The notes below the pieces were generated by a model. The model did not search any database. It saw only the letters and a list, made by a program, of their open reading frames with translations, and was not told where the DNA came from. Positions 29,451 through 61,398 of a stretch of DNA of 64,000 bases are shown piece by piece. The stretch is from Nereocystis luetkeana (taxonomy: Eukaryota > Sar > Phaeophyceae > Laminariales > Laminariaceae), in assembly GCA_031213475.1 (NCBI GenBank), contig JARUPZ010000014.1:1178001-1242000 (forward strand), written 5' to 3'. Numbering within the stretch: position 1 is the stretch's first letter; each line of letters opens with the position of its first letter. Made by a program: the position numbers and the translations under genes.

Positions 29451-29835
29451 CCATCTCCATACAAAACTATCCTCTACTGGCAATGACCACAGCCTACCGT
29501 TATATAGATATCCCTCATCCCCCCCCCACACCTTGAAAACTAAAACACAAATCTACAACTATAGACCTAAGCATCATTATATGTAGATACCCCACATCTC
29601 ACCCCGAACCGAGGCCCAGGCGTTACATTGCAGGGCACCTATAACACCAAGAAAAACTAGTTCTAAGAAAGCCAGGCTGACATCGGCAGGGAAATGAGAT
29701 CCAGGCTGACATTCGCATGGCAACACAGCCCAGGGAAATAAGAAATTCAGACACCGCTATACTGAAGTGAGAGTACAGCGCATCCTTGCCGAAACACTAA
29801 ACCCAGCCTGGGTCCTTAGTTCTGCTGCTTTACCA

Positions 29836-30447
29836 CTACGAGGTTTCCTGTGTTGTCGTAGAGCATAGCCCACGGATGTGACCTTTGAGGCATTCAAGCT
29901 CCGAAGGCAGTCCTGGGGTCTTGCCCGCTCCCCCCCCTCGCTCTTGCCCGTCACCTTCTGGGCCAACTCCCGTGCACGGTTCTAGTTCTTGTTCTCCTTT
30001 ACCGTGCGCGCCGCGACCACCCTCCCCCAAATCCCCGCAGCTGACTCCAAGACTACCACCACCGCCAACGGCGCTGGTGCTGGTGCTGCCGCTGCTGATG
30101 ACACGAGCACTGTCAGTAGTGCCTCTTGCAGAAGGTGCGCCTAGTGCACCAGGCGAGATCGATGCCGTCGCTACCGTCGCTACCGCCGCTGCTGCTGCCG
30201 CTGCTCCTGCTCCTGCTGCTGCCGCTGCTCCTGCTACCGCTGGTGTAGTCACTGGCGTTGTCGTTGCTGCTGCTGCTTCTGCCGTTGTTGGTGCTGATGC
30301 TGTTGCTGCTGTTGTCGTTGTTGTTGTTGCTGCTGCTGTTGTCTTGTTGTCCACTTGAGCGGCTACGTCTGCTCGAGATAATTGGCAGCGGCGCTCCATG
30401 ACGGACACGACCCGTCCGCAGCACAACCGTTCCGCCATCTTTACAAT
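29836..30447 (-). CDS. Last exon of the giant gene, catalytic Tyr lost
   Basis: Encodes IVKMAERLCCGRVVSVMERR followed by CQLSRADVAAQ, so the LEGGY position is MERRC. A Thr/Ala repeat (GCT/GTT triplets on the plus strand) follows, then an end of ECLKGHIRGLCS, which matches the last helix of class II domains. The stop is at 29836-29838. Confidence 0.85.
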   Translation of the reverse strand: MVKMAERLCCGRVVSVMERRCQLSRADVAAQVDNKTTAAATTTTTTAATASAPTTAEAAAATTTPVTTPAVAGAAAAAGAGAAAAAAAVATVATASISPGALGAPSARGTTDSARVISSGSTSTSAVGGGGSLGVSCGDLGEGGRGAHGKGEQELEPCTGVGPEGDGQERGGGAGKTPGLPSELECLKGHIRGLCSTTTQETS

Positions 30448-33400
30448 CTGGGGTCGGTAGACAAGGGGCATGACACAAGTCGGCACAGGAAGGCGCCGTA
30501 AAGAGACACAGCAGCTTGTTAAAAACGGTAATAATGAGACAAGCTAATTTACACGGCCATGAAAAATACAGGGCATGCCTTACGGTTCAGCTGGGTGAAG
30601 CCGGGGATCTGAAGCCGAATCTCCACGCCGTCCGACCAGGAGTCTCCATTAACACCATCACTAACTGAAATACCACCACCGCCACAACCACCACCACTAC
30701 CACCACAAAACTACACTACCAAAACCACCACCACTACTACTACCAACACCAAAACTAGCGCCACCACCACCACTACCACCGCTACCAACGACAAAACTAC
30801 CAAGACCATCAGCACCACTACCACCACCACCGCCATCACCAACAAAACTATCATCACCACCAACACCACCCCCACCAATACCACTAACCTCACGGGTGAG
30901 CCACTCGTAATCCTTAGCGACGAGATCCCCACGCCCGCACGGGTGCCCCTTCCTCCCATCCAAGCCGGGCGATATTATGACCAGGTCCGGACGGAACCCT
31001 TCCAGCGCAGCAGACAGCACACCCAAAGCACCGCCGCCCCCGCTCCCCCCTTCCTCCCCTCCTCCATCAAGCCGCCTTCGGGTCAACCGCACCCCCTCTT
31101 TACCGGCTGTGGTGCTGGCGGTGGTGCTGATGGGACGGCGCATATCCTTCTCCTTAGGGAGGAGGCGAAGGGCGTGCTCGTGCGCTACCGTGCCAGTGTT
31201 GTCGTCGTCTCCGTCTGCAGGGGAGGGGGGATAGGGGTGGGTAGTAAGGGGTGGGGCGTTAGGGGTGATTGGGGGTGGGGGGCGTACTCATTTGTTGCTT
31301 GCCTTAGTCATTTGACCATTACACACGCATCCCTTCAAGACGGGGGGGGGGGGGGGGGGGGGGTCGGGCGAGCAGGGAAGGGAAGGAGGGGGGGGGGGGG
31401 GGGTGAAACACAAAGCGGTGGCACAAAATAACGTAGGCCGACTGGTGAGAAAAATAGCAACCACGACCATACGGTATTCCACAAAGTGAGGAGGAGGCGT
31501 TGTAAGGACGGGGGGGGGGTGAGGGAGGGGTACTCATGTCATGCATGGCCGTAGTCTAATGACCATAATAGGCCGCCGCATCCTTACAGTGCAGGGACGG
31601 GTCGGATTTTCACCGACCAGGCAGACATTGCTTGCACCAAGCGCGAAGCGCCGTGAGGTGTTCGGCGAGTCGCATGAACGGTGGGCTGCATTCTACTGAC
31701 ATCCACTTGTGAGACTTGTGAGGTGCAATTTTCGGTTGGGGGGGGAGGGGGGAGGGGGGGAGAGGGCGGAGCGTGCCCCAAGTGCTTCTTACCAGCGGTA
31801 CTTACTACAGTTCAATATGTGTATGATAAAAACGGAACGAAAACAACCATCGCAAATAATTGGCAAACAAAAAAAACGCCCGTGAGACGGAACGAAAAAC
31901 GATACATATATGATGGATGCACCCGGTCGGTGAACACAATGACAACGAACACATGCGAATATCAGGCGCGAGAACGGATTCAATGTACAACAAAGCAACA
32001 AAGCAACAAAGCAACAAAACCACACTGACAACACCAAGACCGACCGGGGTTACACTTTGGCGGTATCGCGGGCTGGAGTGCATGGTGCGGCCCTCGCCCC
32101 ACGAGCCGGAGGCGAGGCGCGCCCCCCCGCCAGGAGTCCCCGGAGGGCCCCGATACATCGAAACTTCGATATTCCGATATATCGACATACCGATAAATCG
32201 ATATATCAACATATCGATAAATTGATAATATACATACTCCGATATATCGATATTTCGATACTTCGATATATCGCAAATCTAATATTTCGATGTGCCAACA
32301 TGTTCGATATATCGCATGCCCGATATTTCAGTGCAAGAATGCGTGACACGCACCTGACACTGCGATGGAGGCGTAGAGGAACGCCGGGTCGAGGGTGCGG
32401 CAAAGAATGTCAGCCGTACCGGTCGCCAGATGGGCGTCCAAGTCCACAACCGCCACACGCCCAACGGACCTGCGGCGTGAAGAGATGGCGAAATAATCAA
32501 TGAAGTTCGAGGACGAGACACCGGGATATAATTAGTAAATCATGGAACCAAAGCATGGAAAGAGGCAGTCGTTACCGCTATATTACCGTCCTACTGTAGT
32601 TACCGCTACATCGCTACTTCGTCTTTACCGCTACATCGTCACAGGTACCGCTTCACCGTTACAGCTATCGTTATATTGTTGTAACTACCGTCAGGTCCTC
32701 ACATATACCGCTGCGACCACACGGTGAACGTTAAATACCGTTGCCGCCACGTAGATAATTCCAGGCAATACTGTTTCCTTTATCGCTACCGCTACCGTTT
32801 ACCGCCACACTTTTTACAGTTGCCGCCACCTCGTCAGAGTTACGCTACGTCGCAACAAAAACCGCCACATCACATCACAAATATACCGCTACCGCCACCA
32901 CTACGCATCGCTATCCCACGCCAATGAACTTGCACCCCTGCAGTTTTCATTTTTTTTTTTTTTTTTTTTTTTTATCCTCCGGCGGATTGGTAAAAATAAA
33001 GCTTAAGCTCACCACACTTCCACGTTCGTGTCGTGTGTCAATTTAGCCCATTTTTATTTGTTTCTGTTTTACCCTCCGGCGGACCGGTAAAAATAAAGCT
33101 TAAGCTCACCACACTTCTACGTTCAGATTTCTTGTCGTGTGTGTATTTAACCCATAGATCCCCGTTGCAACAGCAGAGCAGGCTGCTGCTACCACTGGCG
33201 CTTGGGCACGTTGACCCGACCTGACCCCCGAGAGGGGATGTAGCTGTACCGCTGTTCACTGCAAGCCGGCCTATCGTCACACATCGTTGGTGTGTTGATG
33301 TTGCCTGTAAAATACTACAAACATCGTATCGTTAACAACACCGGTATCATCAAATTGTTGCAGTTATTTCGAACGCTGCATCCTTGCTCTTACCGATAAC

Positions 33401-36400
33401 GCCACATCGTTAACATGACCGGTACCAATACCACCACCTACCGCGATAACTTACCTGGTACATCGTTCCAGTTCCTGCAACACCATGCTTCGCACCAGTA
33501 CATCGTTACCGCTGCCGCTCGTACCGCCACCACTACCACCACCGCCACGCCACGAGCACAAAAAAAACACCGATACCGCTTCTCGTCTTTTTATTAACTT
33601 TCCGGCGGATTGGTATGTGGAAACACGCAGAACACAAAACATCGATGTAGCCGTACCCAGCACTCACCACTGCAAATGGGCGTAGAGCGCCCCGACGGCC
33701 ACGCTGTTCACCGAAAACGGCCGCCCGTCCGACTCCTCCCGCCCGCCCTCCCGTCCCTCCCGTCCCTCCGAACAGCCCCCGCTCCCGACATGCATACCAC
33801 GGGTTTCGACGAGACAGAGGGCGTTCGCACATTTGCCCGAGAGCACGGCAGACACTCCTCGCACCACGCACGCCGCCGACGCTGAGGCGGGACCCCATGC
33901 CTCCCATCCCCGGGCCACCATGCTCTTTAGGAAGCCGTGGGTGTGCGCTTGGGCAAGGTATTGCTGAAAATTGATGGAAGCGAGGAGAGGGGGGGGGGGG
34001 GTGATACGTACGCGAATAACGTGAGTTGAAAATAGAAAAAACGAAATCAAGCACAAGATTAGACTGAGGCGAGGGAAGGGAGAGTGTGTGTGTGGGGGGG
34101 GGGGCGGGGCGGGGGGCAGGGGGAGCGGGCGGGCCGGGGGGGAGGGGTTGGTACGCGAAAAGCGGAGGGACTATTTTGCAATTTCCAGGGCAATTTTGTT
34201 TTTGTAGGACGCCTCATGGCTCTACGTACGCGTACACTCCAATAGATAAAACGAGCTTGCTCCCGCCTGGCTAAAAGACAAGAGTACTCCAATAATAAAC
34301 ATGGTCTCGCTGTGACGTGGCCAACCATCGCGCTTGTACCATACGGCCGCCCACCTTCTGGTTTCCCCCGGGGCCCCAGCCCCCCCACCCCACCCCCACG
34401 CTGCCAACGTCAGCGGCCTCCTCGGGAGTCTCAATCACCAGTCCCCCCTTTCGCGACGCCTCCAGAACGCCTTCCAGCTCTGTCCAAACGCTGTCAGATT
34501 TATTCGGGGCCGACGTGGTCGGCCTCAGTACCAGCGTCGAACACCTCGCCGACAAAGCATGGGCACCCTCCGCCACCCCCCCGCCTCCTTCTCTCCCTCC
34601 TACTCCTGCTCCTCCTTGTCCCACTAGGTCGCCTGCTTTCTCCCCTTTTCCTCCTACCAATCCTGCTCCGCTGACCACAGTAGCTAAGTTCCCGTTTGGG
34701 CGCGCCGTTTCCGTGCACGCACCGCCGCCCTTTTCACGGCCATCCCCACTACCAGCCTCGCCAACCTCGGCTTCGGCTGCACCACAGGCGCTGGTAGCGC
34801 GGCGCAAAAGGAGACACCTGACCCCGATCCACTCCCGTGCGGCAAGGTCAAGCTTTCGCGCTTGAATTATCAGCCGCGCCGCTTCCATGTCCCTCTGGAT
34901 GAACCGCCCCCCTCCAGACCCGGAACCACTGTTCTGTCGACCCCTTCCGCCCCCTCCGCCTCCTCCCTCATTTCCTCCTCCTCCTCCTCCACCCGCTCCT
35001 CCTCCACTACCCGCTCCGGCTCCTGCTGCTGTTCCAAACCCTTTCCCGCTCACCCCCGACGCTGCTATTTCTCTCCCCGCACCCCCTTCTCTTCGATCGC
35101 CACCACAGCTGCCACCACTACTACCGCCGCCGCCACCATCACTGCCGCGGGCTGGGGCTGCCGCGGCAGCGGTAACAGCAAGAGCAGCAACAGAAGTCGC
35201 CGAGCCGGCAGCCCCTCCTCCGACTCCCGCAGCAACCTCCGCGGATGGGGGAACATTGGCGCTTGCGGCTTCGGCAACCGCCGCCGTCGCCGCCGCTGCC
35301 CCCACCGCCATCACCACCCCTGCCGCCTCGTCCATCTCCATCGCGGCACTTCCCCGCGACGGCGGCAGGACTCGCCGCCACGGTTGCTCTTGGGTGTCAC
35401 CCTCCACGTCGCTCCCCGCCAACTCCGGCTTTACCTTTTCGGTACTCGCCTCGACCCGGGAGACGGCAACAGCCTCCCCGACATCCGCACGACTTGTATC
35501 GCCGATACGGTCCGCAGCCGGCGCAAGCTCCGAGGACAAGACAGCGGCACCAGCAGCACCAGCAGTAGAAGAGGAAGGAGAAAAATACAGGGGCGTTTCC
35601 GTCGAGTGCCCGGGAAGTCCGACGCAGGAAGGGAGCGACGATGACGATGACGACGAGGCTTCCTCTTCAGCTTGAATCAGACATACTTCCGCCTCCCTCT
35701 CTCGTCTGTAGGCATCGGCCAGGCGTCGAACCTGGTGTATACGGAGGCGGGAAATAGCGGGGCCAAATACGGGGGGGGGGGGGGGGTTGTTTTCGCATTA
35801 AACACGTATTTCTACCCAACGACAACAGCACACCCGGTGTCCATTCTGATTCTTCATCCCAAGGAGATACAAGCCATGTGGTCACAGGCTGAGAGACAGA
35901 GAAAGCCAAAGTAATCGCGAACGGATCGAGGTGAGCATACGAAATGCCAACGGGTGCGACAGGGCAACACAAAGCAAGCCGATCAAGAAAATAAGAACTG
36001 ATAACAGACAAGCGACGAAAACATGGGTCACCGGCCGCCGTGTTGGAGCAAGAAAACGTCACACGAGGTCTGCAACGACATCACGAATCACGCCGTTTCA
36101 GCAAACTACGAAACCCTTCGCGCGAAACGTTTTGCAGCGCGCCCCGTCGGCGTCACTCGTATCTCTCATGTAACGCGCGGCACGCTCAGGCGCTACGTAG
36201 CTATCGTCCGACCACCCCACCATATTGTACACCGTCCTACCACCCCCCTCTTTAGCCCGTCCCACCGTCCCACCATCCCACCGCGCCCTATTGTACCGTC
36301 TATCCCACCACCCCACGGTCCCACTACCCCACCACCTCACCGTCCCATCCGACAGTCCCATGACCCCGCCGTCCCCCTGTCGTACCGCCGCTTTATCCCA

Positions 36401-39400
36401 CTACCCATCATCTCCCCACGGTCCCACCATCTCATCACCCCATCGCCTGATCCCACAAGCCCCCATTACCCCACCACCCCATCATCTCACCAACACACCA
36501 CACCGTCCCGCCATCCAACCATCCCGCCAACCCACAGCCTTACCGTTGCACAGGTCAACCATCCCACCGTCCCATGGTCTCATCCCACCACCCCACAGTC
36601 CCATCACCCCACCATCCCACCATGCCCCCTTACCACCGTCCCACCAACCCATGGCCTGACCATCCCACTATCTCAGTCCCACCACCCCACGGTCCGACCA
36701 TCCCATCACCGTCCCACCGTCCCACCATCCCACCATTCTACGTCCCACCACCGTCCCAAAGTCCCACCACCCCACGGTCCGACCATCCCACCATTCTACC
36801 GTCCCACGGTCCCACGGTCTCACGGCCACACAGTCCGACCAGTTCACCACCGTCCCACCGTCTCATCACCCCACCATCCCACGATCCGACCATCCCACCA
36901 TTCTACCGTCCTACCGTCCCATCATCCCACCATTCTACCGTCCCACCCCCCCACGGTCCTACCTTGTCCTCCTTCATGCCCGCCAGCAACGCCTCTGTCT
37001 CCGTTCCCTGGGCCTCCATCTCTCTCACGCGCACTCTCGACTTGGACAGGTGAGCCTTTTCTTTCCTGATCATCGACTGCGGCGGTCCAAAAACGGAAGG
37101 CAAGAAAAAATGGAGGCGTTTCTACCCCGGGAATAGGGGACATATAAAATAACCCCGGGTCTTCATGTAACCCACCCGGTAGGTTCGCAAGCGGGCATTA
37201 CCGGCTCCAGGGTTACTACCATCCGCACTTGATTCTCTTCACATCCCAAAGAGGAGTTGACCTCGCCCCAACCCCCGCCCCATCTTGCCCTATCTGCCCG
37301 CAGAAAATCATTTACGCACCTCTAGGCTATCAAGGGTGTCGCGGGCAATGGACGGCTCTCCCTCCGCCCAGCACTCGTCGGCTAGGGCCCTGAGCGTCTT
37401 GATGCGTTCGGTCTTCAAAGCCATTCGGCGCCGGATTCGGTCGAGGTCGGACCGAATAGCACCCCTATTCGGCGGCGATCAGCGAGTGAGTAGCGAGTGA
37501 AAAGGAAAGGAAGGGAGTTTGACACATGGAGTTGAGCTGCGCTGGGTGCAAACGCGCGGTCAGACCTTGACTTTGACAATGACTTCACCTTAACCCTACG
37601 CTTTTGACCTTGACCTTAACCTCAACCTTACCCGTAACCTTGACCTTACCCTTTTAACCTCAACCCTGACCTTAACCTTGTCCTCAACCTTACCCGTAAC
37701 CTTGACATTGACGTCAACCTTGCCCTTTTAGCTCTAACCTTGATCTTAACCTTACCCAACCTTGACAGTAACCTTGCCCTTACCCTTGACCTTAATATTT
37801 TACCCTTTCAACCTAAATCTTGACCTCAACCCTACCCGTAACCGTAACCTCAACATTACCCTGCTACCATAAGCTTGACCTCACCCTTCGACCTCAACCT
37901 TGACAATGACCTTACGCTTACCCGTAAACTCAACGTTACCCTGGTACCCCATAAAGCTTTGACCTAAACTTTACCGTGACCTTAAGCTTACCCTTTTAAG
38001 CGTGAACATGACCTTAACCTCAATCGTAAACCATGGCCTTATCCATAACCTCAACCTTGAACTTGATCTTAACGGTAAGCTTAAGCGTGACCCTTAACGG
38101 TAACCTCAGCATTCAACGGTAAACCATAGCCATGAACTTTGATCTCAGCGGTAACCATAACCCCAACCCTGGCCTCGAGCTTGGCATACACCTTAACCCA
38201 GGCCTTGACCTTGACATACACCCACCACTACATGCAGTACTCCGTAGATACAGTCCTACTGCCCCCTCTTTCTGACCTCTTGCTTTCCAGACGTCGAAGA
38301 CGTTCTTCCAGTCTGCCGAGGCCGTTCTCCCTGCTGGCTTGCCCGCGCCGCATGAGAGCGTCATGGCTGCCAAACACACACGAACAAGGCAAACCATCAC
38401 ACATCACGTATCAGATTCTCAATCAACGATTTACGTACCAATCTGTACCAAAATATAGTCATCGTTTGTATACTAATATCCAATCCAATTGGTTCCTATA
38501 TTTAGCGACAGAGTTGTGAACATTTGGGGGCAGACACATCCCCGATTCACTATGACAGGATCTGCATGTTCTACATCGTGTTATCGGGTAGGACGTGTAT
38601 GCCACAGCTCTTGTACAACATCTCACGACGGGAAAAGTACCTATAGGTGTCAATAGTATGTAGATGATCTAGATGATCTAGACGATCTACTACTACAGAT
38701 CGTGACCTGCCTGATGTGTCATACGGCACACAGTGGCAGACACGCCGGTCCGATCGAGGTGGGTGGGTTGCGCAAAAGAGACATAGCAAGGTTGAAAACA
38801 GATTAAGGGAGACGATACCAATGGGAGGCGATAGATCAAGCCACCGGTGAGTGTTGTGGGCGAGTGCTATGGGCGAGTGCCATAGGCGAGTGCTATGGGC
38901 GAGTGCTATGGGCGAGTGCTATGGGCGAGAGCTATGGGCGACTGCTATGGGGGGGGCAATCTATGTAGGTCTTCATCTCCTGGACAAAGAGAAATAGGTC
39001 GTCCAAACCCGACCTGAACCAAGACAAATTCGTGCGAAATATTCCGAACTAATCAGACGAGGCATGGTGTGTTCGCGCCATCGCATCGACGCGCCGCGCG
39101 TCCCGTGGTCGCCAGGGTACATCTCAGGTACATCCCCGGGTTTCCTAGGTGGATCTGGATCGTGCGGCGGATAAAACGGATCACTATATAGAGCGACATT
39201 ACTTCGCAATCCCTCCGACTTAATTCTACTCGCGTTATCTGGTCGAGTGATCGTCCACGCGCTTTGGCCATGGGTCCCCTTACCTCTGCCTCGTGGTCCT
39301 CTCCACCGATCTGTGCACATCTTCCACGAGCGACACAAACTCTCCCAGCCCAAGTTTCACCGCCTCCCCATCATCCCCATCCCGACCCCCACCCCCTCTC

Positions 39401-51400: not shown

Positions 51401-54400
51401 ACCCTTTCGCATCATCACCACCTACATCGCCATCTAGAACATCAAAATGCATACTGCAGTAGGTAACCCCCTGTGCTTGCTAGATATTATATTAATACTG
51501 TAGCCTGTTGTGCAAGAGTCATGTCATGCAAAGACTCACGGTGGCGACAACGCCAGCGGCAACAATAACTAACTACACCGGATACAGCAGCAGTACGCGG
51601 CGGCAGTTAATAAACTGCGAGTTAACAAAGGATAGGCTCGTTTGTAACTCCTTTTTAAAACTAAAACTAAATGGAGGCCACACCTTGTCTCAACCATTTA
51701 AGGACTACAGCCCCGTTTTGGGGACAAACTACTTGGAATTTTGAGTGGTTTGTCTCCAAAACGGGACCGCAGCCCTAAAAGGGTCAAGACAAAAATTTCA
51801 CCCTAGCCAACCCCCCCCGGTAGTTCCTAAGTGATTGCATCGTATTGTAGTAATTTCGCTCGCCAACCCCTCCCCCCCCACCCCCAACCCCCCCCTATCC
51901 CTATCCTACACGTGTTCTTGTTCACTCACTTGCGTGACCGCGGATGTTTCTTGAAGTGTGTACCGGGAGGTGGCGCGCTAGACCTCGCCCCCCCCCGCCC
52001 CCCCCCGCCCCTGCCCCGACCCCTACCCCTTCCTCCGCTTTGCAACCGCGCGCGGTAGACTGGAGACCCGCTGCCGCCGTCACCGCCGCTTCCATCGGCG
52101 CTAGCGCTACGAGGGCTGCGAGAGGAAGAAGAGGGGACGCTTGTCTTCCGCCCTCCACCCGTTGCGACATCCTCGTAAGGGTTGGGAGGCGTTTTTCCTT
52201 TCTTCCTGGGGGGTGGGGCACCGACACCCCCGCTATCGTTGCCACTACCGCCGCCGCCACCGCCACCGCTGCCACCACTGCGCTGCTGCTTGCTTGCTAT
52301 CTGCAAGAGCACTGCTTTCACACGCCTGGGCATCACAGGATGATGGAAGAGAAATTCGGGGGGGGGGGGGGCAGCGATAGTGGGTAATCCCCATGGTAAG
52401 CGATGCATTGACATGTACCACTTGTGCAAACATACCAGGAGCGTTTGGGTATTAGCATGACTCCAAAAACGCTCCTTACAATGCTAGGCAGCGTTGCACA
52501 TAACACGGGCATGAAATGACACCGACATTGATGTTGACATTCACATGACAAGATTCACATGAACGCCAACATCACCGGGAACACCTACATGGACACAATG
52601 GGCACTGTGGACACTACCGTCACCAGCAATACGACAATATATGAGCCAAGCACACGAACATACCATACTCGTGACGACCCCCATCGCCAGCAATATTCGC
52701 ATCGCCACAGCAATCACCACCACGACCACTACGACCAGTAACACCAGTAACACCACCGCCAACGTCAACCCTTTACACCGTCAAACCCAAGACCAAACTT
52801 CACCACCATATTCGACTCCAACTGCACCACGAAATTCAGCGTAAAAAAGTGCAGCTCCTACAGTACAGTAGTTCGGTATACACATCCTCGCCTGTCGTAC
52901 TCCACCCAGACACACTTGCGCGCCTCGCAAGGCTGCTTGTACGACCCCTTCCCGCCGTGTTTGGGCATGTCCTGGCAGTAGCGACACTCGCCGCAATCGG
53001 GTAGCAGACAGGGGGCGCATTGGTTGCAGCGCCGTGCCTTTCGCGCGAGGGGACAGGGGGGCGGGGCAGGCCATCAGTACCGGCCGTCAGAGAAGGAGAT
53101 AGAGGAAGGGGGAGAGAGACAGAGGGAAGGAGAGACGGGGAGAAACATTCGCGACCTGCTCACCTATGGCCCCGAAAACCCCAAAAGTCTTACACGCGTG
53201 CACACACTATACGCTCGAGCAAACCCACGAACATACAACTACACCTCTGTCACACAAACGGAAAAAACGCTCATAACCGGGAAAAACGCATCAAAACAAA
53301 ATTAAACTATCAACATACTAAACCGAACAACAAAACAAAACCAACCGGTTAATCGGGCACCTTCTTGCCGTACAGCGTGATGATGTACCCCGGGTGTTTC
53401 CCCTTCGGTCTGCGCACGCCGTGCGCCGCTAGCATCGCGTGGTCGTTCTTCTTCCTGTGCTGCAGCGGCTGAGCGCTGGTCGTGCTATTCGTCGGCGGAG
53501 CTGCCGCCGCCGCCACATCACCCGCACCGCCACCCCCACCCCGACTTCTACCCCCAGCCCCGCGCCCCCCGCCCCCGGCACTAGGCCCGCCGCCAACTCG
53601 CCCCCCTCGGGATGCCGAACCTGCGACGGATCGAGAAGTTCCGCCACTACCCCCACCCTCGCCTCCACCGCCGCCGCCTCCACTTCCAGCTCCATCACTT
53701 CCACCGCCGCCAACCCCACCACCGCTGCCACCACCACCCCCACCCCCGCCACCCCCACCTCCACCATCGCTACCACTACCACCGCCACCACTACCACCGC
53801 CACCACCACCACCACCACCACCACCATCACCGCCACCACCACCATCACCGCCATCGTCACCACCACCACCACTACCCCCATCCCCAGCACCGCTACCGTC
53901 GCGGTTGGCAGAAGGGGGGAGTCCGAGGCCCAGCCCGGTGTAGATACGCTCGCGAGTCTTGGCGCTGCGCGGAGGGTAGAGCTTAAAAGCGATGCGGATG
54001 GTCTCCGGTCCCGAGTCGGCGATCCTGCGGAAGCGGCCGTAGTCTTGCGCATCACCCTCCGCGTCTGAGCCCCACTCGTCTCCGGACGCAACGTCTGTCG
54101 GAACTATGCGCATCATCTGAAAGGGGGGGGGGGGGGGGGGGGGGAGGAGGGAGGGAGGGAGGGAGGGAGAGCGAGAAGTCCTAAAGGGTTGAGAAACATG
54201 GTGGTGGGTGTGATGGGCGGTGAAGACGTACAAAAACACGAGGGGGACTCGCGCGATCTCGAAGGCGTAACACTCTTCCCCCTTCCTCGCTCTCTCCCCC
54301 TTCCCCTCCGCCTCGCCAACGAAGGGAAACCCCAACCCTCCGCTGCATCGAAAAGACAAGTCTCCGCCCGCTGTACATCAATCACGCTGCGTGACGCTGA

Positions 54401-57400
54401 CCGACACCGAATGAGGAGCCTAAGACTGGAGGCCGAGTTGCCACGACCGACCGCGGAGAGATAACCCTGAAAAGACCCACTCTTCCCCCTATATTATATA
54501 CCTGGTATATGCATATATATATATATATATATAGGTTGGGCTGGCGTCGGTTGGCGACGACGCTGTAAAGTACGCTTCTCATCACGTGAGCTACTGTAGA
54601 TAACCAGGGTACCGTTATAAGTTGTTGCTTTTTTGGCGGTCGCCACGGCTGGCGGTCGAGTTAGATCATTGTTGTGCGGAGACGACCTTAACTCCCCACA
54701 ACGGGGATGATCATATCACGTAGTGTGTATATGGTAAGGCACCAACATGGAAAGTTACATCATAAACCCATTGCTGTCTCTGGAAGTGGACACACCAAAA
54801 GACAAATCAATCCATGGACGCTATCATCCATATGCAAGAAAATCTGCCTTAAAAGCGGTTCTTAGTAGAATGCAGCTCACCCTTTATGCGACTCGCCCAA
54901 CACCTCAAGGCGCTTCGCGCTTGGTGCAAGCAATGTCTGCCGGGTCGGTTAAAACCCGACGTGCTCCGTCCCGGTATTGTAGGTATGCGAGGGTCTATGG
55001 TCATACGACTACGGTCATGCATAACATTGCGTACACCCCACCCCCCCAACCCTTGGCGTCGATTGGCAACGACGCCGTTGAACACGCCAACCACTGCGTG
55101 AGCTAGACAACCAGGTATCGTTTGTATTTTATTTTTTGGTGGTTGTCATGGCTGGCGGTCGAGTGAGATCATCCGTGCGGGGCGGAGCACATTAAATCCG
55201 CAAAAGGGGAATTCACTTATCACGTAGTGTGCACATGGCGAGGCACCCACGAGGGTGTTACATTGTATACCCATTCCTGTCTATGGAAGTGGCCACACCA
55301 GAAAATACATCCGCTAATTCGACGCTGTCATCCGCATGCAAGAAAGTCCGCCTCACACGTGGTTCAGGATGCAGCTCAACCTTCATGCGAATCACCGAAC
55401 ACCTCATGGCGCTTCGCGCTTGGTGCAAGCAATTTCTGCCCGGTGAAAACTCGACGCATTCCGTCCCGACATCGTAGGGACGTTAGGGTCTATGATCATA
55501 CGACTACGGCCATGCATGACATGAGTACCCCGCCGGCCCCACCCCATCTCAATTATTGCCCAACCCCCTCACTTACCCTAGCTGCCCGGTGCCTCCCGCA
55601 GAGCCGGGGAAGGATAAAACCGTGGGTGGCCATCTGCTGGCACCCATCTTTGTCACACTTACGTCTGTGCCAGGCGCAAAAAAGAAGAGAAAAAAAAAAA
55701 CGCGCAAAAAAAATAACAGGTATGAGCGGGTGAGGGGGGGGGAGAAATATAGAAATATGAGCCAGCCCCCCGTTATACATGAGGTATACATCGCAGCAGC
55801 AGCAGCAGCAGCAGCAGCAGCGGCAGCCGCAGCGCCACACCGGCGGTAGTAGCAGCGCGAGGCGGGGCCGACTCGGGGAAGCCGCCCTCCTAAGGTCCCG
55901 AAGCGCACTCCTCCGTCACAAACAAAGGAATAGACACACCAAGGGCGTCCTGTTGAACTACAGAACGGCAGCAGCTAGCTTCCTCCCAGCGCTCGTGTCG
56001 AAAAAAAATACGAAACTGTTGGAATTTCAATATTCCACAATGTTTCCGCCCCTCACCTGCGCTCCGAAGGGTCTTCCTCCAGCATGTGGCTCAGAGCATT
56101 CCTGGTATCCACCTCTTGCGAAGTCTTGACATCAGCGACCTCACTCTCCTCCTTCCCATCGACAACAGGGGACGCAGACACCGACATCCCTGGGTCCGCA
56201 GCACCCGCCGCCACCGCAGTGGGAACTCCATCACCACCGCCACCGCCACCGCTACCACCACCGGCCTTCCAAGAGTCTTGCCAGGCGGTAGGGGGGGCGG
56301 GTCTTGCCAGGCGGCCGTCTCCGGTCTTGCTGAAGCTGTCTTGCGGGTAAGGTGGGGACTGGTTGTTTCGTGCCTGTGTGTCGGCGCTCCTGGTAAGGAG
56401 GCACGTGGCGGCGGCGGTGGAGGCACGGTCATCAGGGATGCATGTTAAGCGTTGCAGCTGTGCTCGCGTTTGCAAAAAATCCACGAACCGTTCGCAAAAT
56501 TCTCGACATTCGCGGACTAAAATAAATAAAATCCTCATGGGAAATGCCACCTTGTACACTAGAAACCCCTGGCTTTCCCTGACAGGGGTGATAGTGCTCC
56601 ATCTCCAGTATTTCATTACTTGCGTCCGGGCCGTTCGCGGGCGCCGTTCGCACTATTTTTAGCTGTAACATGCATCTCTTACAGAAAACGATTAAGGGTG
56701 ACGACGATGTACGGTAGGGGTAACGACCGCGTTGACAGTAAGGCTAGTCACCGCGACGACTATGACAACGACTCCCATAATCAATGACAACAACACCGAC
56801 CAAAACAACTGCAACAACGACAATGGCAACGACCACTCCAAACCGTGCACAACACTGCCTCCCCCCCCTTCAAAACCTGACGTGATCCGTTCCGGAAATG
56901 TAGGGATGGGAGGGTCTACGGTCATACGACTACGGCCCATGCATGACATGAGTCCCCCACTCTCCCCCCTCCCTCACCTCAGCCCGGCGCTTCCATCCCC
57001 ACCAGGTCTCCCCCTGCCGCCTCCATCCCCTCCTCCAGTACCGTACCCGCTTCCACCACCCGCAACAAGCCGCCCGTTGTGCTGTACCCCTCCTCCTCCC
57101 GCCCCAGGGCCCACAGCGGCACCGTACGCCATCCCCGGCGCGCCATACACAGGGGGAAAGGGAGAGGGGCCGCCCACATGGTGGGGAGGGTAGCCCGCCG
57201 GCGAGGTGGGGAAGCTTCCGAAGAAAGCAGGAGGGGCGGGGAAGCCATAGCCGGCGGCGGCCCCCATCGAGGGGTAAGGGCCGTAAGGGGAAAAGGTGCC
57301 TGGGTAGGCGTGCGGCGGGGGGGGGGAGGCGGAGGCGGCACCCCCGTCTTGCCACTGCCCGTAGAATCCGTGTCCGTATCTGGAATGGATGTGAGGCGGT

Positions 57401-60400
57401 GGTGGAAGAGGCGGGAGGGGGTGGTGGTGGTGGTAGTGGTGGTGGTGATCGGGGTGTTGGTGATTTGGGGCAAGCGAAAAATGGAAACGGCAAGAGGTGG
57501 GGGGTGGCAGGGGTTCGTCACTTCGGGCGACGTCATGGGGTCGTCGGAGACGGTATCTGACGCTCTTGCAAGGAATAACTCCCCTCTTTCGATCAAAAGT
57601 GGTTCGTTTCCACTTGCAGCCGAGTCTAGACAGCTACAGGATTGAAGAACACTTACCATCCGCAGCAACCTCAAGCGGGCGCGCGAGCGGGGGCGGGGGG
57701 GGCAGCCAACTTTGAAAGCAAGTTGTCCTGTCAAGACACAAGTACCCTAAACCAGCGCAACTCAAAGCACGAGCAGTCAACCAAATAAACCAAAACGGAA
57801 TAAGCCCGCCAATAGCAATACCGTGGCCACCGCCTGAGCCCTCCCCTTCACGAATACCCTCCGGCCCAAACTCAAAACATCCACGCACTAAAAAACTCAC
57901 GGATTCATCGCGGCTCCTGCAGCGTTCGGAGACATGTTGAAACCGAACGCGCCATACCCTCCGGGCATCCCATACCCCGCCCCCGCCCCCGCTCCAGCCC
58001 CGGGTCCCATTCCCCCCACAGTCGCCCCGCCAGCGCCCCTACCTCCCCCACCACCTCCACTAACACCACCACTTCCACCCCTCCCCCTGCCACCACCAAC
58101 CCCACCACTTCCACCCCCACCACCACCACCACCGACACCACCAACACCACCAGCGGCGGTGCCGGCCGGGGTGGCGGCAGCCGCGGTGCGGGTTGAACCG
58201 TCGCCACCGTATTTTTGGTGCCCACTGCCGCCGCCGCCGCCGCTAGGACCACTGCCGCCGCCACCGCCGGCACCACCACCATCGCTCACTGTTGTTCCAC
58301 GCGAACCACCGCTGTCGCCGTCCTCAGCGGCACCCAAGCCGTGAGCGATCGACGAGGAGCTTCGGACTGCGGACACAGCAGGACCAAGGCCACCACCAAC
58401 ACCACCACCAACGGTAGCAGTGGTAGCACCAGCAACAGCACCAGCGCTAGCATTGGGGAGGGTCGATGCCCCGGAACGCTCCGACACCGACTGCTCGTGC
58501 TTAAGCAGCGGCGGCGGGGCATGCCGTGCCCCACCTACCGCGCCGCCCCCCGCGGCCGTAACTCCGTACACCCCCGCCCCGCCCCCAGCCACGTCGCTAC
58601 CACGACCTGGCACGGAAAGGGAAGATGAAGGTAGCGCCGACCCAGTCACAGATTTGTCCGCGTCCGGGGCCGCAACCGCACTGGCGGGGGCGGCGGAAGG
58701 AACGGCGGAGGCAGACACCGCGGGGGTGGGGAGACGACCGGAAGGGGTATCTCCGGACGATGACGAGGAGACAGACGAGAATAAAGGCGCAACCTTTGCA
58801 GGGGGCGAGGGTCCGTCCAGTAACGGGCAATCGTCGGTGGGGGCAGACACTTCGGTTAATTCCACCGCGGCTGCCGCCGCCGCTGCCACCCCCGGAGCGT
58901 GCGCTGCCTCTGCCGAGCTCTCCGATAGTGTGTCGTCCCTCGACTCCGCAGGCGCACCTGACGTCCCACCACGCTCAACTGCCTCCGCAACTGCCGACGC
59001 CGCCCCCATCGTTTCGGAAAAACGCTCAGGGAATGCGGCCTCTTCCCCTAGAAACCCGTTGTGAGCGGTGCCGAGCGGCTGCTCCTCGTCCATCGCGTCC
59101 ATCCCCCCCTCGCGTCTGCTCGCTTCTGATGCTGTTCCTGCAGCTCCTGTCCCTGCTCCTGCTCCTCCCCCCCCTTCTCCCTCTCCCTCTCCGCCCGATG
59201 CAACTCTCTCGGAAAACGAATCCACACCACCGCCGCCAGAGGACGAGAACGGTGTCAACGACAACACCTGCGCTGGAGCTGCTGCACCTACACCTGCAGA
59301 CCCGAAACCGGAAGTTATATCGCCGGTGATCAAGTCCGGCCCTAGCGGATTGGGCTCAACCCCGGCAACCTCAGCGGCAGCAGCAGCGATGGCGGCAGCG
59401 GCAGTGGCAGGAGCAGCAGGAGGAGGAGGAGCAGCAGCAGAAGCAGCAGCAGCAGCAACAAGGGTAGTTTTATCCACCGCCCCGGCTTCGCCTCCAACAC
59501 GGGGCGGCACCGTCACTCCTTCCCGAAGAGAGCCTGCGCTCCCTTCGGCTAAAGGCGCCGTCCCTTCCAACTCCGGTTCGGGGGGTTCCAAGGCGGCGGC
59601 GGCGACTGCGATTCCTGTCGGCGGCAGTGTCCTCCCCACCGTACCGACAGATAGGCCAGTGTTGTCGTCAAGCGCGGGTCTTCTAGAACAGAACAGGGGG
59701 CCAAGGCGTGGGAGGCGTGGAGGGGGGGGGGGGGAGGGGTAGGGATGGACCGGTCTTTGCATGGCTTTGGGAGGCCGAGGGGGGAAGGAGGGGGGGGGGG
59801 GGGGTAAGTATACCGCGAGAGCTAAAAAAAAGTGCGTTTCACAGTTTATTCCCGGACCAGCGTGGATGGGGATATTTTTTTGGCAGTTGGTGCAAGGGGG
59901 GGAAGGGGGGGGGGAGGGCGGAACAGCTCCGGTCCAGAACAGCCCAAATGTAGTTGATACGAGCCAAGAGTGTGAGAGAAAATTCGAGGGAATACGAACT
60001 AATCATGTTTTCGTTAAAATACAGAATGACATGTTTATAAAAAAAGTCCTCGCAGCCCCTGGTAGGCAGTGCTTAGAACAATCATAGTGAACAGGTGCGA
60101 GCGCACGTCGGAGCAGGGGCTGCAGGCTGCACGGGTCCAAGGAACTGCCGCAAGTGTCTGGCTACCAACGACAACCCATGGTCAAGGTCCCCTATCCTCC
60201 CCCCCCCCCCCCATCCTCCCACCCAAAAACGAAACATGTGCCGAAGATATTACCTCTTCGCCGGGCGCTCCCTGCCCCCCCCCGCCCTCTCCTCCCCCTG
60301 CAGTTGTGCCCTGTCTTCCTGCGCCCCCCCATCCGCGGAAAACACGCCTCCTCCTGCGCTTTCCACGGGGAGGGGTCGCTTTCTGTCTCCCCCCGTCCCC

Positions 60401-61398
60401 TCCCTACCGCCGCCTCCGCCGTCACCGTCAACATAACCGTCGCCATTGCTGCTGTACCTCCCCCCCCCGACAATACCGCCGTCCACCGGGTGGAAACCCC
60501 GTCGTGAGGCTTTCGAGGGACTGTCGATGGTAACAGCCGCCGTAACTGCGGCCATAATCGCCTCATCATCGTCAGCCCCACCGTCGCCGCCGCCGCCGCT
60601 GCTGCTCCCACCACCAGCTACCGCCATCTTCGCCTCGGCCGGGTTCGCCTCGAGCCCCAACTCGGCGGGGCAGGCCACCCCCCCAGCTTCATCCTCCCGC
60701 GTCCCAACCGGGAGGGATGTCGATGGCAACCCTTCTGGGACCTTCAACGACGGTGTTGCGGGAGCTGTAGGCGTCGGCGACGGCGTACTGATCCCGCTAC
60801 CGCCACCGCCATCACCACTACCACCGTCGCCGCTGGAAACGGGGGCGGCGTCTTCCGTGCCTTTATCCGCCGCCTCGGCCGCCGCCACCACCATTGCCGC
60901 CGACGCCGCCGCCGTCGGCACGCCGTCGATCTTATCCTGCGTCGCCGCAACCGGCGCGTCTCCTTCCGTCTTCACGGCCACCTTAGCAGACACTGACGCT
61001 GATGTTTTCACTGGCGCTGGCGCCGGTGCTGACGACAACTTCGGCGGCACTTCAGTCGCCGGCTCTCCGCTGCTGTCGACAACTGTGCCGCTGCCACCAT
61101 CGTTTCCAGCACCACCAACACCACCCCCAATACTCCCACTACCCCCACCACCGCCCCCTCCACCACCCCCACCACCGCCGCCACCACCGCCACCGCCACC
61201 ACCGCCACCACCCCCACCACCACCACCGTCGCTCACGACCACGGCTTGATTCTTCTCGCCTAATCTCTGCGCGGGGACATCCTCGAGGTACCCCTCCACA
61301 GCCGGGAGGGGTCCACCTCCCCCCCCCCCTTCCTCCTTCTCTTCGACCTGGTCCAAGCGGACCGACGGGAAAAAGGACACCCCGGTGCCCGAGCGCAT
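29836..61398 (-). CDS. Giant CXXC / coiled-coil / pseudo-HDAC gene, about 25 exons
   Basis: Exons in transcript order: 60254-61398, 57901-59682, 56978-57379, 56057-56389, 55577-55664, 53361-54116, 52892-53037, 51930-52325, 49720-49816, 48203-48301, 47402-47575, 45727-45869, 45159-45317, 43872-43965, 42680-42889, 41017-41187, 39284-40821, 38277-38366, 37320-37464, 36963-37076, 34400-35731, 33668-33963, 32354-32469, 30889-31214, 29836-30447. All junctions keep phase and the sum is exactly 3588 codons. Features by approximate residue: low complexity 1-1220; Cys/His finger 1222-1245; CXXC fingers about 1505-1545 and 1683-1725; Cys-rich 1870-1930; coiled coil 2578-2720; degenerate HDAC 3090-3490. 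It is probably a chromatin protein that reads CpG-containing DNA and uses the HDAC fold for binding rather than catalysis. The start could lie further upstream, outside the window. Confidence 0.75.
30889..31214 (-). CDS. HDAC-like exon with third zinc Asp kept
   Basis: The acceptor ccctcccctgcag is strong. It encodes a Gly-rich insertion and then GFRPDLVIISPGLDGRKGHP and DLVAKDYEWLTRE. The Asp of PGLDG is the third zinc ligand position. The donor is GAG|gttagt, phase 0. Confidence 0.88.
31275..31700 (-). repeat. Dispersed C-tailed repeats R12 (31275-31330) and R6 (31527-31700)
   Basis: Both are inverted. R6 has the long form with the core. R12 is diverged (AATGGTCAAATGACTAAGGC then GAGTACGCCCCCCAC), and its tail points to the acceptor of exon 30889-31214, 61 bp away. 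Confidence 0.65.
32150..32335. repeat. CGATATATCGATA simple repeat
   Basis: A degenerate self-complementary ATCGATAT repeat in the intron after exon 32354-32469. Confidence 0.85.
32354..32469 (-). CDS. HDAC-like exon with zinc Asp and His kept
   Basis: Encodes SVGRVAVVDLDAHLATGTAD and ILCRTLDPAFLYASIAVS. The Asp-x-His zinc ligands of DLDAH are kept, while the usual following HGNG is LATG. It joins as TG|G upstream and G|AC downstream. Confidence 0.88.
32575..32910. repeat. TACCGCTACATCGT-type minisatellite
   Basis: Degenerate CTACCGCTA units, resuming at 33375-33540. Confidence 0.7.
33668..33963 (-). CDS. HDAC-like exon with His-His changed to Met-His
   Basis: The acceptor is caattttcag. 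It encodes QYLAQAHTHGFLKSMVARGW, then VVRGVSAVLSGKCANALCLV and ETRGMHVG. The position of RPPGHHAGP is occupied by ETRGMHVGS, so the first catalytic His is Met. The exon ends SVNSVAVGALYAHLQ, equivalent to LLNNAAIGAAYAR in the active gene. Confidence 0.85.
34400..35731 (-). CDS. Large exon linking coiled coil to HDAC-like domain
   Basis: 444 codons, phase 0 at both ends. It begins VRRLADAYRREREAEVCLIQ, continuing the coiled coil, then is Ala/Gly/Ser-rich. The end encodes HALSARCSTLVLRPTTSAPN and VWTELEGVLEASRKGGLVIE, which aligns loosely with the first strand and helix of the HDAC domain. The family HPExP motif is lost. Confidence 0.75.
36230..36950. repeat. CCCACCATC minisatellite
   Basis: About 70 degenerate 9-10 bp units. 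It ends at the donor of exon 36963-37076. Its His/Pro/Thr translation is not a gene. Confidence 0.9.
36963..38366 (-). CDS. Coiled-coil exons (38277-38366, 37320-37464, 36963-37076)
   Basis: Three small exons join in phase. They encode HDALMRRGQASRENGLGRLE, ERLRRLESKRGAIRSDLDRI, RRRMALKTERIKTLRALADE and SMIRKEKAHLSKSRVRVREM. Regular Leu/Ile/Val positions among Arg, Glu and Lys indicate a coiled coil, likely for dimerisation. Minisatellites of the CCCACCATC and TTAACC types fill the neighbouring introns. Confidence 0.8.
37565..38225. repeat. TTGACCTTAACC hexamer-type repeat
   Basis: Degenerate CCTTGA/CCTTAA/CCTCAA hexamers, about 100 units, in the intron between two coiled-coil exons. Confidence 0.85.
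38845..38948. repeat. 13-bp GGGCGAGTGCTAT tandem repeat
   Basis: About eight near-identical units. Confidence 0.9.
39284..40821 (-). CDS. Large exon with possible small beta domain
   Basis: About 512 residues. The start encodes VDQYARGYRFRVGGTRKRGR and then VEVKLAFTGRRFVRLKLDNF, which looks like alternating beta strands. The middle is Gly/Ala/Ser-rich, and the end (LGEFVSLVEDVHRSVERTTR) runs into the coiled coil. The donor GCAGAG|gtaagg is strong, phase 2. The fold is not recognised. Confidence 0.7.
40906..40955 (-). repeat. Dispersed C-tailed repeat, copy R7
   Basis: Inverted. On the minus strand its C-rich tail becomes the pyrimidine tract of the acceptor of exon 39284-40821. Confidence 0.7.
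41017..41187 (-). CDS. Giant gene exon 16
   Basis: Encodes a 57-residue segment with SSIEQETVVAGMLGQT. The acceptor is ccctgtctctccggcag. A downstream acceptor at 41131 is also strong but gives the wrong phase for the preceding exon. No domain is recognised. Confidence 0.6.
41255..41545. repeat. 30-bp minisatellite with GGGGGTACCCGGGTACC
   Basis: About nine to ten units containing palindromic GGTACC and CCCGGG, 70 bp upstream of the acceptor of exon 41017-41187. Confidence 0.88.
42680..42889 (-). CDS. Basic and Gln-rich exon
   Basis: The acceptor is gtttttacag. It encodes EKSKKVIKPVPERTAYYDRL and ARLARRINSYKRAKDLQDQR, then a Gln run from a CTG repeat (plus strand 42720-42775), then acidic residues. 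The start is phase 0 and the end is phase 0 at gtgagg. Confidence 0.75.
43600..43865. repeat. CCGAACCGAAC simple repeat
   Basis: Degenerate AACCGAACC units, complementary in type to the GGTTC tract at 8578. Confidence 0.85.
43872..43965 (-). CDS. Cys-rich exon, second part
   Basis: Encodes YKCLPGAAQCGFCRRGPGH and LILLAEWARHVQ. It joins the previous exon as AG|G and ends in phase 0 at gtccgt. Confidence 0.65.
45159..45317 (-). CDS. Cys-rich exon, possible zinc finger
   Basis: Encodes LNYRALDVEAEVLECPWTCR and GCLRRSTSCGCLEGF, with C-x3-C-x2-C-x6-C-x-C spacing. Together with the next exon (C-x6-C-x2-C) it may form a zinc-binding module. It recalls the CP-x-CRG-x-CxC end of the 4CXXC_R1 family, but the match is weak and I do not assign it. 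Confidence 0.65.
45542..45660 (+). repeat. Dispersed C-tailed repeat, copy R3
   Basis: Preceded by a 25-C run. Its tail points toward the donor side of exon 45727-45869, 67 bp away, antisense to the gene. Confidence 0.75.
45727..45869 (-). CDS. Acidic linker exon
   Basis: Encodes VDDDISRRDREGGGGVDG, then ELEEHDRETELADPYFNKMH. The donor gtgaga is in phase 2. A poly-Asp extension encoded by the CAT microsatellite at 45893-45925 lies upstream in the same frame, but no acceptor is visible before it. Confidence 0.65.
46817..46926. mobile_element. MITE family A, copy 9, with central motif
   Basis: Lies in an intron of the giant gene. The centre carries TACCTGGTATATATTT. The right arm is slightly diverged (GTCCCCTAGTA). 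Confidence 0.8.
47135..47245. repeat. 51-bp tandem repeat
   Basis: Just over two units of GGTTGACCGCACTCTGGTG and GACCGCACTGTAGGGTCCCC. Confidence 0.85.
47402..47575 (-). CDS. Acidic exon of the giant gene
   Basis: Encodes AMTGEDGEDENREEDEDQ followed by a poly-Glu run and LAEEDMMLEHDQ. The best donor is GC type (CAG|gcgagt, phase 0). The acidic tract could act as a histone or activator contact, which is inference. Confidence 0.65.
48203..48301 (-). CDS. CXXC zinc finger 2, last two Cys, then acidic
   Basis: Begins VCLQKRCHALGR, giving the C-x4-C pair that completes the second CXXC finger, then runs into SPRSEMEQEEFDEEG. The finger is completed exactly by phase-0 joining across the GC-AG intron. 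Confidence 0.85.
49720..49816 (-). CDS. CXXC zinc finger 2, first part
   Basis: Encodes CGDCAGCHSVECGECKYC and QDMPKNGGPGRFRQ. It has the same Cys spacing as finger 1 and KNGG at the DNA-contact position. It ends at a GC donor (CAG|gcgagt). The last two Cys of the finger come from the next exon. Confidence 0.9.
49874..50034. mobile_element. Hairpin repeat with CAGGGCT/AGCCC-like ends and GGGTC core
   Basis: Starts CAGGGCTTTTCGTGGGT and ends ACCCGTAAACAGCCC. The centre has GGGTC repeats followed by complementary GACCC. Related hairpins lie at 22850-22945 and 46545-46692. The ends resemble hAT MITEs, but no 8-bp target duplication was confirmed. Confidence 0.5.
50356..50700. repeat. Two tandem units of about 172 bp
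   Basis: Both contain GGCTACATGATATATAC, ACACGACAACAGGCATAACG and GCATCTGACTG. Intronic. Confidence 0.88.
50819..50912. mobile_element. MITE family B, copy 9
   Basis: Lies in an intron of the giant gene. Ends AACCGTTTTAGAACCG and CCTAAGAGGGTT. Confidence 0.75.
51140..51390. repeat. 22-bp minisatellite AGGCATGCCTTATTCACAGC
   Basis: About ten degenerate units carrying the palindrome GGCATGCC. Confidence 0.85.
51692..51787. mobile_element. MITE family B, copy 10
   Basis: Arms GACTACAGCCCCGTTTTGGG and CCAAAACGGGACCGCAGCCC. It lies 140 bp from the donor of exon 51930-52325. Confidence 0.75.
51930..52325 (-). CDS. Basic Gly/Arg/Ser linker between CXXC fingers
   Basis: Encodes VKAVLLQIASKQQRS, Gly/Ser repeats, PPPRKKGKTPPNPYEDVA and an RGRGRGRGG run, ending KKHPRSRK directly before the second CXXC finger. 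RG repeats and basic patches suggest nucleic acid contacts. The donor is gtgagt, phase 2. Confidence 0.75.
52892..53037 (-). CDS. CXXC zinc finger 1
   Basis: Encodes RRCNQCAPCLLPDCGECRYC, then QDMPKHGGKGSYKQPCEARK and C. The eight Cys residues are spaced C-x2-C-x2-C-x4-C-x2-C-x2-C ... C-x4-C, with a KHGG in place of the usual DNA-contacting KFGG. This is the CXXC domain that binds unmethylated CpG in MLL, DNMT1, KDM2 and CFP1 proteins. The exon ends at a GC donor (CAG|gcgagg). Confidence 0.9.
53361..54116 (-). CDS. Giant gene exon 6, Gly-rich with conserved ends
   Basis: The acceptor follows a run of C. The first part encodes MMRIVPTDVASGDEWGSDAE and IRIAFKLYPPRSAKTRERIY, which looks structured. 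The middle is a long poly-Gly segment. The end encodes GVRRPKGKHPGYIITLYGKK, just before the first CXXC finger. The donor AAG|gtgccc is weak but in phase. Confidence 0.75.
54541..55535 (+). repeat. Two tandem units of about 500 bp ending in C-tailed repeats R8 and R9
   Basis: Unit 1 (54541-55050) and unit 2 (55053-55535) share GGCGTCG-TTGGC-ACGACGC starts, a TGGCTGGCGGTCGAGT block, TATCACGTAGTGTG, and the dispersed repeat at their ends. They may show the full-length form of the dispersed repeat. R9 ends 42 bp from the donor of exon 55577-55664. Confidence 0.7.
55577..55664 (-). CDS. Cys/His finger exon, EsV-1-7-like
   Basis: A small exon with a perfect donor (CTAGG|gtaagt) and the acceptor ctggcacag. 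It encodes RRKCDKDGCQQMATHG and then FILPRLCGRHRAAR, a C-x4-C-x13-C-x2-H pattern. Brown-algal and EsV-1 virus EsV-1-7 repeats are, from memory, C-x4-C-x16-C-x2-H, so this is similar but three residues shorter. A zinc-binding role is inferred. Confidence 0.75.
56057..56389 (-). CDS. Giant gene exon 4
   Basis: Encodes a Ser/Asp/Gly-rich linker ending SHMLEEDPSERR. Its phase-2 donor gtgagg joins the Cys/His finger exon as AG|A. Confidence 0.7.
56862..56965 (+). repeat. Dispersed C-tailed repeat, copy R10
   Basis: Core TACGGTCATACGACTACGGC. The tail ends 13 bp from the donor of exon 56978-57379. Confidence 0.7.
56978..57379 (-). CDS. Giant gene exon 3, Tyr/Gly/Pro-rich
   Basis: Encodes YGHGFYGQWQDGGAASASPP and later AYPGTFSPYGPYPSMG, a prion-like Tyr/Gly/Pro composition. 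The acceptor is cattccag and the donor gtgagg is in phase 2. Two other frames over the same DNA are longer but are plain Pro/Arg or Thr/Pro shadows. Confidence 0.75.
57901..59682 (-). CDS. Giant gene exon 2, Ala/Gly/Ser-rich
   Basis: About 594 residues, almost all Ala, Gly, Ser, Pro and Val, ending in GYGMPGGYGAFGFNMSPNAA. The phase-2 donor gtgagt joins the next exon so that the Gly/Tyr-rich composition continues across the junction. No folded domain is visible, and the region looks intr­insically disordered. Confidence 0.7.
60254..61398 (-). CDS. First visible exon of the giant gene, Gly/Val/Ser-rich
   Basis: An ATG at 61398 follows an in-frame TAA (61471-61473) with no AG between them, so this ATG is a valid start. 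A second reading uses a good acceptor at 61348 (ttggaccag|GTC, phase 0), which would accept the phase-0 exons at 63.0-63.9 kb. The exon carries a long poly-Gly run (CCACC repeats on the plus strand) and a basic end, and its donor is in phase 2. Confidence 0.65.

Follow-up and report, generated by a model that had tools for sequence, protein, structure and literature searches.

Introduction

In animals, zinc fingers of the CXXC family (zf-CXXC) recruit writers and erasers, as well as methylases, to unmethylated CpG islands, and a KFGG loop marks the CpG-binding type of finger. Proteins with CXXC fingers also occur in animals without CpG methylation; such fingers in the absence of this mark are therefore not unique to brown algae. 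Active histone deacetylases (HDACs) carry Asp-His-Asp zinc ligands, a catalytic His pair (GHH) and a catalytic Tyr (in EGGY). In class IIa deacetylases the Tyr is replaced by His, the metal site is kept and N-terminal interaction regions are present. These proteins are thought to serve as scaffolds or ligand readers, and without the Tyr they have weak activity on other substrates.

Here we describe a minus-strand locus of Nereocystis luetkeana that encodes two CXXC fingers, a coiled coil and a degenerate HDAC domain, probably within one gene. The locus lies in a stretch of 64,000 nucleotides (contig JARUPZ010000014.1, positions 1,178,001 to 1,242,000), hereafter the window, whose numbering is used throughout. 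If the fusion holds, it represents a new architecture built from known domains; a literature search over titles and the opening lines of abstracts returned no CXXC-HDAC protein in brown algae.

Gene model and its support

The minus strand from 29.7 to 61.5 kb was read in three frames and exons were joined by hand, after which the model was amended by homology and by a small purpose-written gene-finder (dynamic programming; its codon statistics came exclusively from exons that have homologue support and lie outside the link between the CXXC and HDAC halves). The resulting model (61398-29836, minus strand; Table 1) comprises 24 exons totaling 10638 nt, which encode 3545 aa in phase and close on a single terminal stop. 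An earlier note on this DNA had proposed 25 in-phase exons; the chain does close in frame, with 24 exons, while exons 1-5 are unsupported by any homologue. All acceptors are AG and all donors are GT, with the exception of three GC donors (exons 7, 9 and 11). The gene thus has three GC donors of the CAG/GCGAG type (52892, 49720 and 47402, minus strand), two of which sit at junctions that are gapless in a homologous protein.

Homologue support comes from two annotated proteins. P0004, a 1222-aa partial protein of Scytosiphon promiscuus, aligns from inside exon 16 (approximately residue 2114 of the hand-built model) to near the stop, and P0005, a 447-aa protein, covers exons 6-11, including the two CXXC exons. 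A scan of viral contigs found no relatives of either protein. Ten of the 23 junctions are gapless in a relative, three are imperfect and ten have no homologue support (1/2 to 5/6 and 11/12 to 15/16). Junctions 6/7, 7/8, 8/9 and 9/10 are gapless in P0005, and 10/11 is gapped there, with a score of 58 that is lower than the shuffle 95% level of 75. Against P0004, junction 19/20 is interrupted and 20/21 has a 2-residue gap. The comparison with the earlier 25-exon model covered its three named junctions. The first, 39284-38277, is borne out at 39284/38366, which is gapless in the Scytosiphon protein; the second, 36963-35731, is split by 63 residues in that protein; and the third, 34400-33963, is recovered in altered form at 34355/33963, the exon ending at 34355 (AAG/GTGGGC) and not at 34400. 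A donor at 34409 before 33963, picked for canonical HDAC spacing, was also ruled out, as the Scytosiphon protein places the donor at 34355.

Codon scores were compared with those of intronic decoys. None of 369 decoys scored as high as exon 11, eight scored as high as exon 1, and zero, three and two scored as high as linker exons 12, 13 and 15, respectively (exon 13 having been scored with its end at 45173). Scores were weak for exons 2, 3, 8 and the last exon, whose levels were reached by 22, 23, 28 and 72 of the 369 decoys. However, the homologue-supported exons 9 and 22 also have poor codon scores, which 46 of 676 and 55 of 513 decoys attain, so the codon score is a weak judge of exon quality. 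The gap at 45159-42889 probably holds an extra exon (43965-43872); once the gene-finder had proposed it, the GC donor of exon 13 at 45173 was replaced by 45159. The boundary of the 5' part of exon 16 (40821-39284) is in doubt, the gene-finder having cut it differently from the hand-built model.

Two further features of the locus were recorded. Exon 5 (55664-55577, minus strand) contains an EsV-1-7-like C-X4-C-X13-C-X2-H motif, which scores 12.4 bits with PF19114 (cut-off 25) over 33 of 35 positions. The introns at 36960-36260 and 41550-41250 (minus strand) appear by eye to be rich in short repeats, GTGGGACGGT-like and GGGTACCCCC-like.

Table 1. Exons of the gene model in window coordinates.
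Feature	Position	Strand	Description
Exon 1	60254-61398	-	Proposed start ATG; Gly/Ala/Ser-rich; in-phase model; no homologue
Exons 2-5	59682-57901, 57379-56978, 56389-56057, 55664-55577	-	Low-complexity N-terminus; in-phase model; no homologue
Exon 6	53361-54116	-	Starts MMRIVPTDVASGDEWGSD; 48/71 residues identical to P0005
Exon 7	52892-53037	-	CXXC finger 1 (KHGG loop, KQ); GC donor; PF02008 47.1 bits
Exon 8	51930-52325	-	Basic low-complexity linker; both junctions gapless in P0005
Exon 9	49720-49816	-	First part of CXXC finger 2 (KNGG loop); GC donor CAG/GCGAGT
Exon 10	48203-48301	-	Last two Cys of CXXC finger 2, then acidic
Exon 11	47402-47575	-	Acidic; GC donor; P0005 ends inside matching stretch
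Exons 12-13	45869-45727, 45317-45159	-	Acidic, then Cys-rich linker; recovered by gene-finder; no homologue
Exon 14	43872-43965	-	Cys-rich linker (KCLPGAAQCGFC); gene-finder proposal, restores phase; no homologue
Exon 15	42680-42889	-	Basic, Gln-rich; recovered by gene-finder; no homologue
Exon 16	39284-40821	-	Gly/Ala-rich; 3' part aligns to P0004; 5' boundary uncertain
Exons 17-19	38366-38277, 37464-37320, 37076-36963	-	Coiled coil; P0004 alignment and heptad test
Exon 20	34355-35731	-	Coil end, linker, start of HDAC fold (from ~34561); P0004
Exon 21	33668-33963	-	HDAC; loop GMH replaces GHH
Exon 22	32354-32469	-	HDAC metal site VDLDAHLATGT
Exon 23	30889-31214	-	HDAC metal site PGLDGRKGHP
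Exon 24	29836-30447	-	HDAC end VMERRC (catalytic Tyr replaced), low-complexity tail, stop

CXXC fingers

Both fingers exceed the PF02008 cut-off of 26.5 bits, finger 1 (53037-52892, minus strand) with 47.1 bits and finger 2, which is split across two exons (49816-49720 joined to 48301-48203, minus strand), with 36.8 bits. When the 465-Mb assembly (1987 contigs) was searched exon by exon, two of 14 candidates passed, both of them in this gene (50.6 and 38.8 bits). No other CXXC protein was detected in this genome by the exon-by-exon search, which intron-split fingers elsewhere could escape. Each finger contains the eight zinc cysteines in CXXCXXC-CXXCXXC-C-C order with X15 ahead of the last pair. 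A spacing of X8-14 is quoted for the CXXC domain in a passage of PMC10538959; the X15-spaced finger 2 is nonetheless gapless against DNMT1. Among solved structures in the PDB, finger 1 is closest to MLL, and finger 2 to DNMT1 and KDM2A. In the position of the KFGG loop, both fingers (KHGG and KNGG) retain the Lys and the Gly-Gly but not the Phe, and the Lys/Arg-Gln that follows the loop, before the last Cys pair, is retained in both. The two fingers claimed in the earlier note are thus upheld by their profile scores and by their relative P0005, which is identical at 48/71, 72/109 and 48/58 residues in three blocks (66-83%), the last block being finger 2 and its tail. Judged by sequence, the fingers are very likely to bind CpG.

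The segment at 54116-53900 (minus strand), which starts MMRIVPTDVASGDEWGSD, is also conserved in P0005, and Pfam found no family for it. When P0005 was folded by itself, the model was poor (mean pLDDT 41.6); in it, the part matching this segment is predicted to form three helices (pLDDT 63-79 over residues 31-70, with the first helix lower).

Coiled coil and degenerate HDAC domain

The coil segment was tested for heptad periodicity with a simple score, and none of 500 shuffles scored as high as the real sequence. Together with the Scytosiphon relative, in which the end of exon 16 and the coil are identical at 138 of 204 positions (68%), this result confirms the coiled coil proposed earlier. 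That the coil and the HDAC domain share one polypeptide is likewise sustained, given that P0004 joins exons 16-24.

The five HDAC exon parts, when joined with the junction at 34355, score 73.3 bits against PF00850 (cut-off 27.9), compared with 76.5 bits for the first-chosen junction at 34409, so both families named in the earlier note, PF02008 and PF00850, are found over cut-off. Pfam scans of whole frames, which covered 29501-44500 and 47001-62000 with X in place of stops, returned single HDAC exons at only 19.1 and 12.7 bits; these scans are insensitive, since they missed the CXXC fingers. The closest solved chains of the domain are class II and bacterial deacetylases. Within the fold, RPPGHH has become ETRGMH, D-x-D-x-H-H has become DLDAHL and EGGY has become ERRC, while the later Asp is retained in PGLDG. 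The Asp-His-Asp metal ligands are therefore present (VDLDAH, PGLDG); the His pair reads GMH, with the first active-site His lost and the second present; and the position of the catalytic Tyr is occupied by Cys. The Scytosiphon fold (58.3 bits with PF00850) ends in ERHC, so loss of the Tyr is common to both species. The description of the fold as HDAC-like and degenerate accordingly holds, and it is highly likely that the domain does not hydrolyze acetyl-lysine, a prediction drawn from its residues.

There are several potential explanations for a domain with an altered active site. It could be a decaying pseudogene or a fragment of an HDAC duplicate lying beside a CXXC gene, as the loss of catalytic residues and the long Gly and Ala runs might suggest; however, the modelled exons are open and their splice sites usable, and this explanation is extremely improbable. 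Across the HDAC domain, 172 of 320 positions are identical to P0004 (54%, with 85 gap positions included), and by eye there are near-identical blocks of 50/53 residues around VDLDAHLATGT and 50/57 from FRPDL to the ERHC end. Identities of 54-68% and such blocks point to purifying selection. Alternatively, the domain may have retained a changed hydrolysis, acting on another acyl group or substrate by means of the metal and the second His, with a Cys where the Tyr would be. The Asp-His-Asp ligands and the second His in the window are compatible with this possibility, as is the strong conservation of the surrounding residues in Scytosiphon. However, the whole GMH loop is absent from the annotated Scytosiphon protein, so that, barring an annotation error, the His is missing from it, and the active-site motifs of the other HDAC loci that were examined are intact where seen. 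Overall, a changed activity appears quite improbable, though better placed than decay, and the reading of an enzymatically silent fold is preferred.

The PF00850 search of the genome returned 28 stretches (26 over cut-off, from 46 candidates), among which the minus-strand HDAC exons of this gene were absent. At eight other HDAC loci, GHH was intact in 5/5, D-x-D-x-HH in 6/6 and the Tyr in 4/4 where seen. The pattern search used for part of this comparison could detect no forms other than the intact ones and that of the window, and loci C23, C24, C26 and C37 were left out. Among the compared loci, the HDAC gene at C14:9.26 Mb matched best, with 65% over 34 residues; by eye, its metal-site exon is preceded by an intron of the same position and phase. 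This shared intron suggests a duplication at the DNA level. The window contains a second HDAC gene on the plus strand (12590-24605) with intact GHH, D-x-D-x-HH and GGY, arranged tail to tail with the degenerate one. Derivation of the degenerate domain from this neighbour was rejected, as the neighbour matches it worse than does the C14:9.26 Mb HDAC.

One gene or two

The CXXC, coil and HDAC parts probably lie in one gene and one transcript. Because neither P0004 nor P0005 spans the stretch between the two halves, the fusion is unproven, and the claim of the earlier note that the fingers and the HDAC fold belong to one gene stands on coding score, phase and a one-versus-two-gene score, with no spanning homologue. 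Three protein searches found no homologue spanning exons 12-15, one of them being swamped by low-complexity words (8000 candidates scored), and these exons gave no Pfam family over cut-off and no convincing solved chain. Between the fingers and the coil there is also a Cys-rich stretch (45317-45159 and 43965-43872, minus strand; ECPWTCRGC ... KCLPGAAQCGFC), which could be an undescribed zinc module.

The alternative is that two neighbouring genes on the same strand, a double-CXXC gene (approximately exons 6-12) followed by a coiled-coil pseudo-HDAC gene, have been fused by an artefact of exon chaining; the start of the downstream gene would then fall within exon 13, ahead of exon 15 or within exon 16. 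In its annotation P0005 stands alone: its initial Met coincides exactly with the first codon of exon 6, and it diverges past MFR and stops within exon 11. However, its tail past MFR (RCAL) resembles read-through of a donor, judging from the protein letters, so the end of P0005 may be an annotation artefact. The frame of exon 12 meets a TGA at the donor, and this exon could end a gene. Possible starts of a second gene are offered by in-frame Met codons at 45169 (towards the 3' end of exon 13) and 40479 (exon 16), the latter exon following a weak acceptor (0.7); exons 14 and 15 lack an in-frame Met, as does their open frame upstream. Against a separate downstream gene, P0004 extends upstream of the match at residue 2203 of the hand-built model without a Met there. 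Moreover, candidates of at least 20 codons in the introns from exon 11 to exon 16 score at most 6.0 as initial and at most 6.3 as terminal exons, versus 11.0-31.6 for exons 12, 13 and 15, in a scoring that predates exon 14 and whose training set included exons 12 and 15.

With both ends fixed, the gene-finder returns exons 11-15 in phase, and the one-gene score exceeds the two-gene score by 3.1. This margin is small and was obtained with costs that were set by the authors, not fitted, by a program that often mis-cut Gly-rich exons in the controls. The link nevertheless scores above all five controls (+1.5, -4.3, -2.4, -4.9 and +0.4), which overlap and were drawn from two homologue-supported stretches. 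The two-gene explanation deserves consideration but is rather unlikely, and a single gene is the reading carried forward below.

CpG methylation and possible function

In PMC13076208, brown algae are described as having no DNA methyltransferases beyond DNMT2 homologues and no PRC2, and cytosine methylation is reported to be missing; the words CXXC, HDAC and deacetylase are all absent from its main text. The observed/expected CpG ratio in the window is 0.94, which fits little or no CpG methylation, and the earlier note's premise of absent CpG methylation is thus in agreement with both this paper, for brown algae in general, and the window. However, PMC6916402 gives approximately 1.4% methylated cytosines in Saccharina, mainly in CHH context, so the field is not unanimous on methylation in brown algae.

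A tentative reading of the whole, with chances close to evenly balanced, is that of one large protein rich in low-complexity sequence that combines two fingers, an acidic and Cys-rich linker, a coil and a class II-like pseudo-HDAC and acts as a tether. The two fingers would hold the protein on unmethylated CpG, the coiled coil would dimerize or bind partners, and the metal-binding pseudo-HDAC would scaffold or read a ligand instead of hydrolyzing it. With no CpG methylation to exclude it, such a protein would track CpG density. A more specific proposal, which we consider possible but unlikely, is that of a dedicated brown-algal protein whose fingers read bare CpG and bring an enzymatically silent HDAC fold to chromatin, where the altered metal site would read acylated histones or serve for docking. 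If true, the locus would encode a new regulator guided by CpG density in a lineage reported to be without DNA methylation and PRC2, and the fusion of a CpG reader with a pseudo-deacetylase would make it a candidate for partly replacing these missing systems. Such a fusion would also make it testable whether CpG density alone can guide chromatin state.

Comparison with known systems

The zf-CXXC proteins (DNMT1, KDM2A/B, MLL/KMT2, CFP1 and MBD1) share with this locus the CXXC profile, the eight cysteines and the K/R-Q before the last Cys pair. They differ in having a KFGG loop where KHGG and KNGG are found here, and no DNA methylase, JmjC, SET or PHD domain was detected in the scanned pieces and the insensitive whole-frame scans of this locus. 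Compared to class II HDACs (HDAC6, HDAC4 and bacterial HDAH), the domain also scores over the PF00850 cut-off and has the metal ligands; however, the first active-site His and the Tyr have been lost, and a coiled coil and possibly CXXC fingers lie upstream. Class IIa HDACs resemble it in their replaced catalytic Tyr, their metal site and their N-terminal interaction regions, but here the Tyr is replaced by Cys instead of His and the GHH is altered as well, and no orthology is claimed. The Scytosiphon protein P0004 differs in its missing N-terminus, in a 63-residue insert after the coil exons and in an annotation without the GMH loop, but it shares the coil (68% identical), the HDAC domain (54%), the loss of the Tyr and the VDLDAHLATGT metal site.
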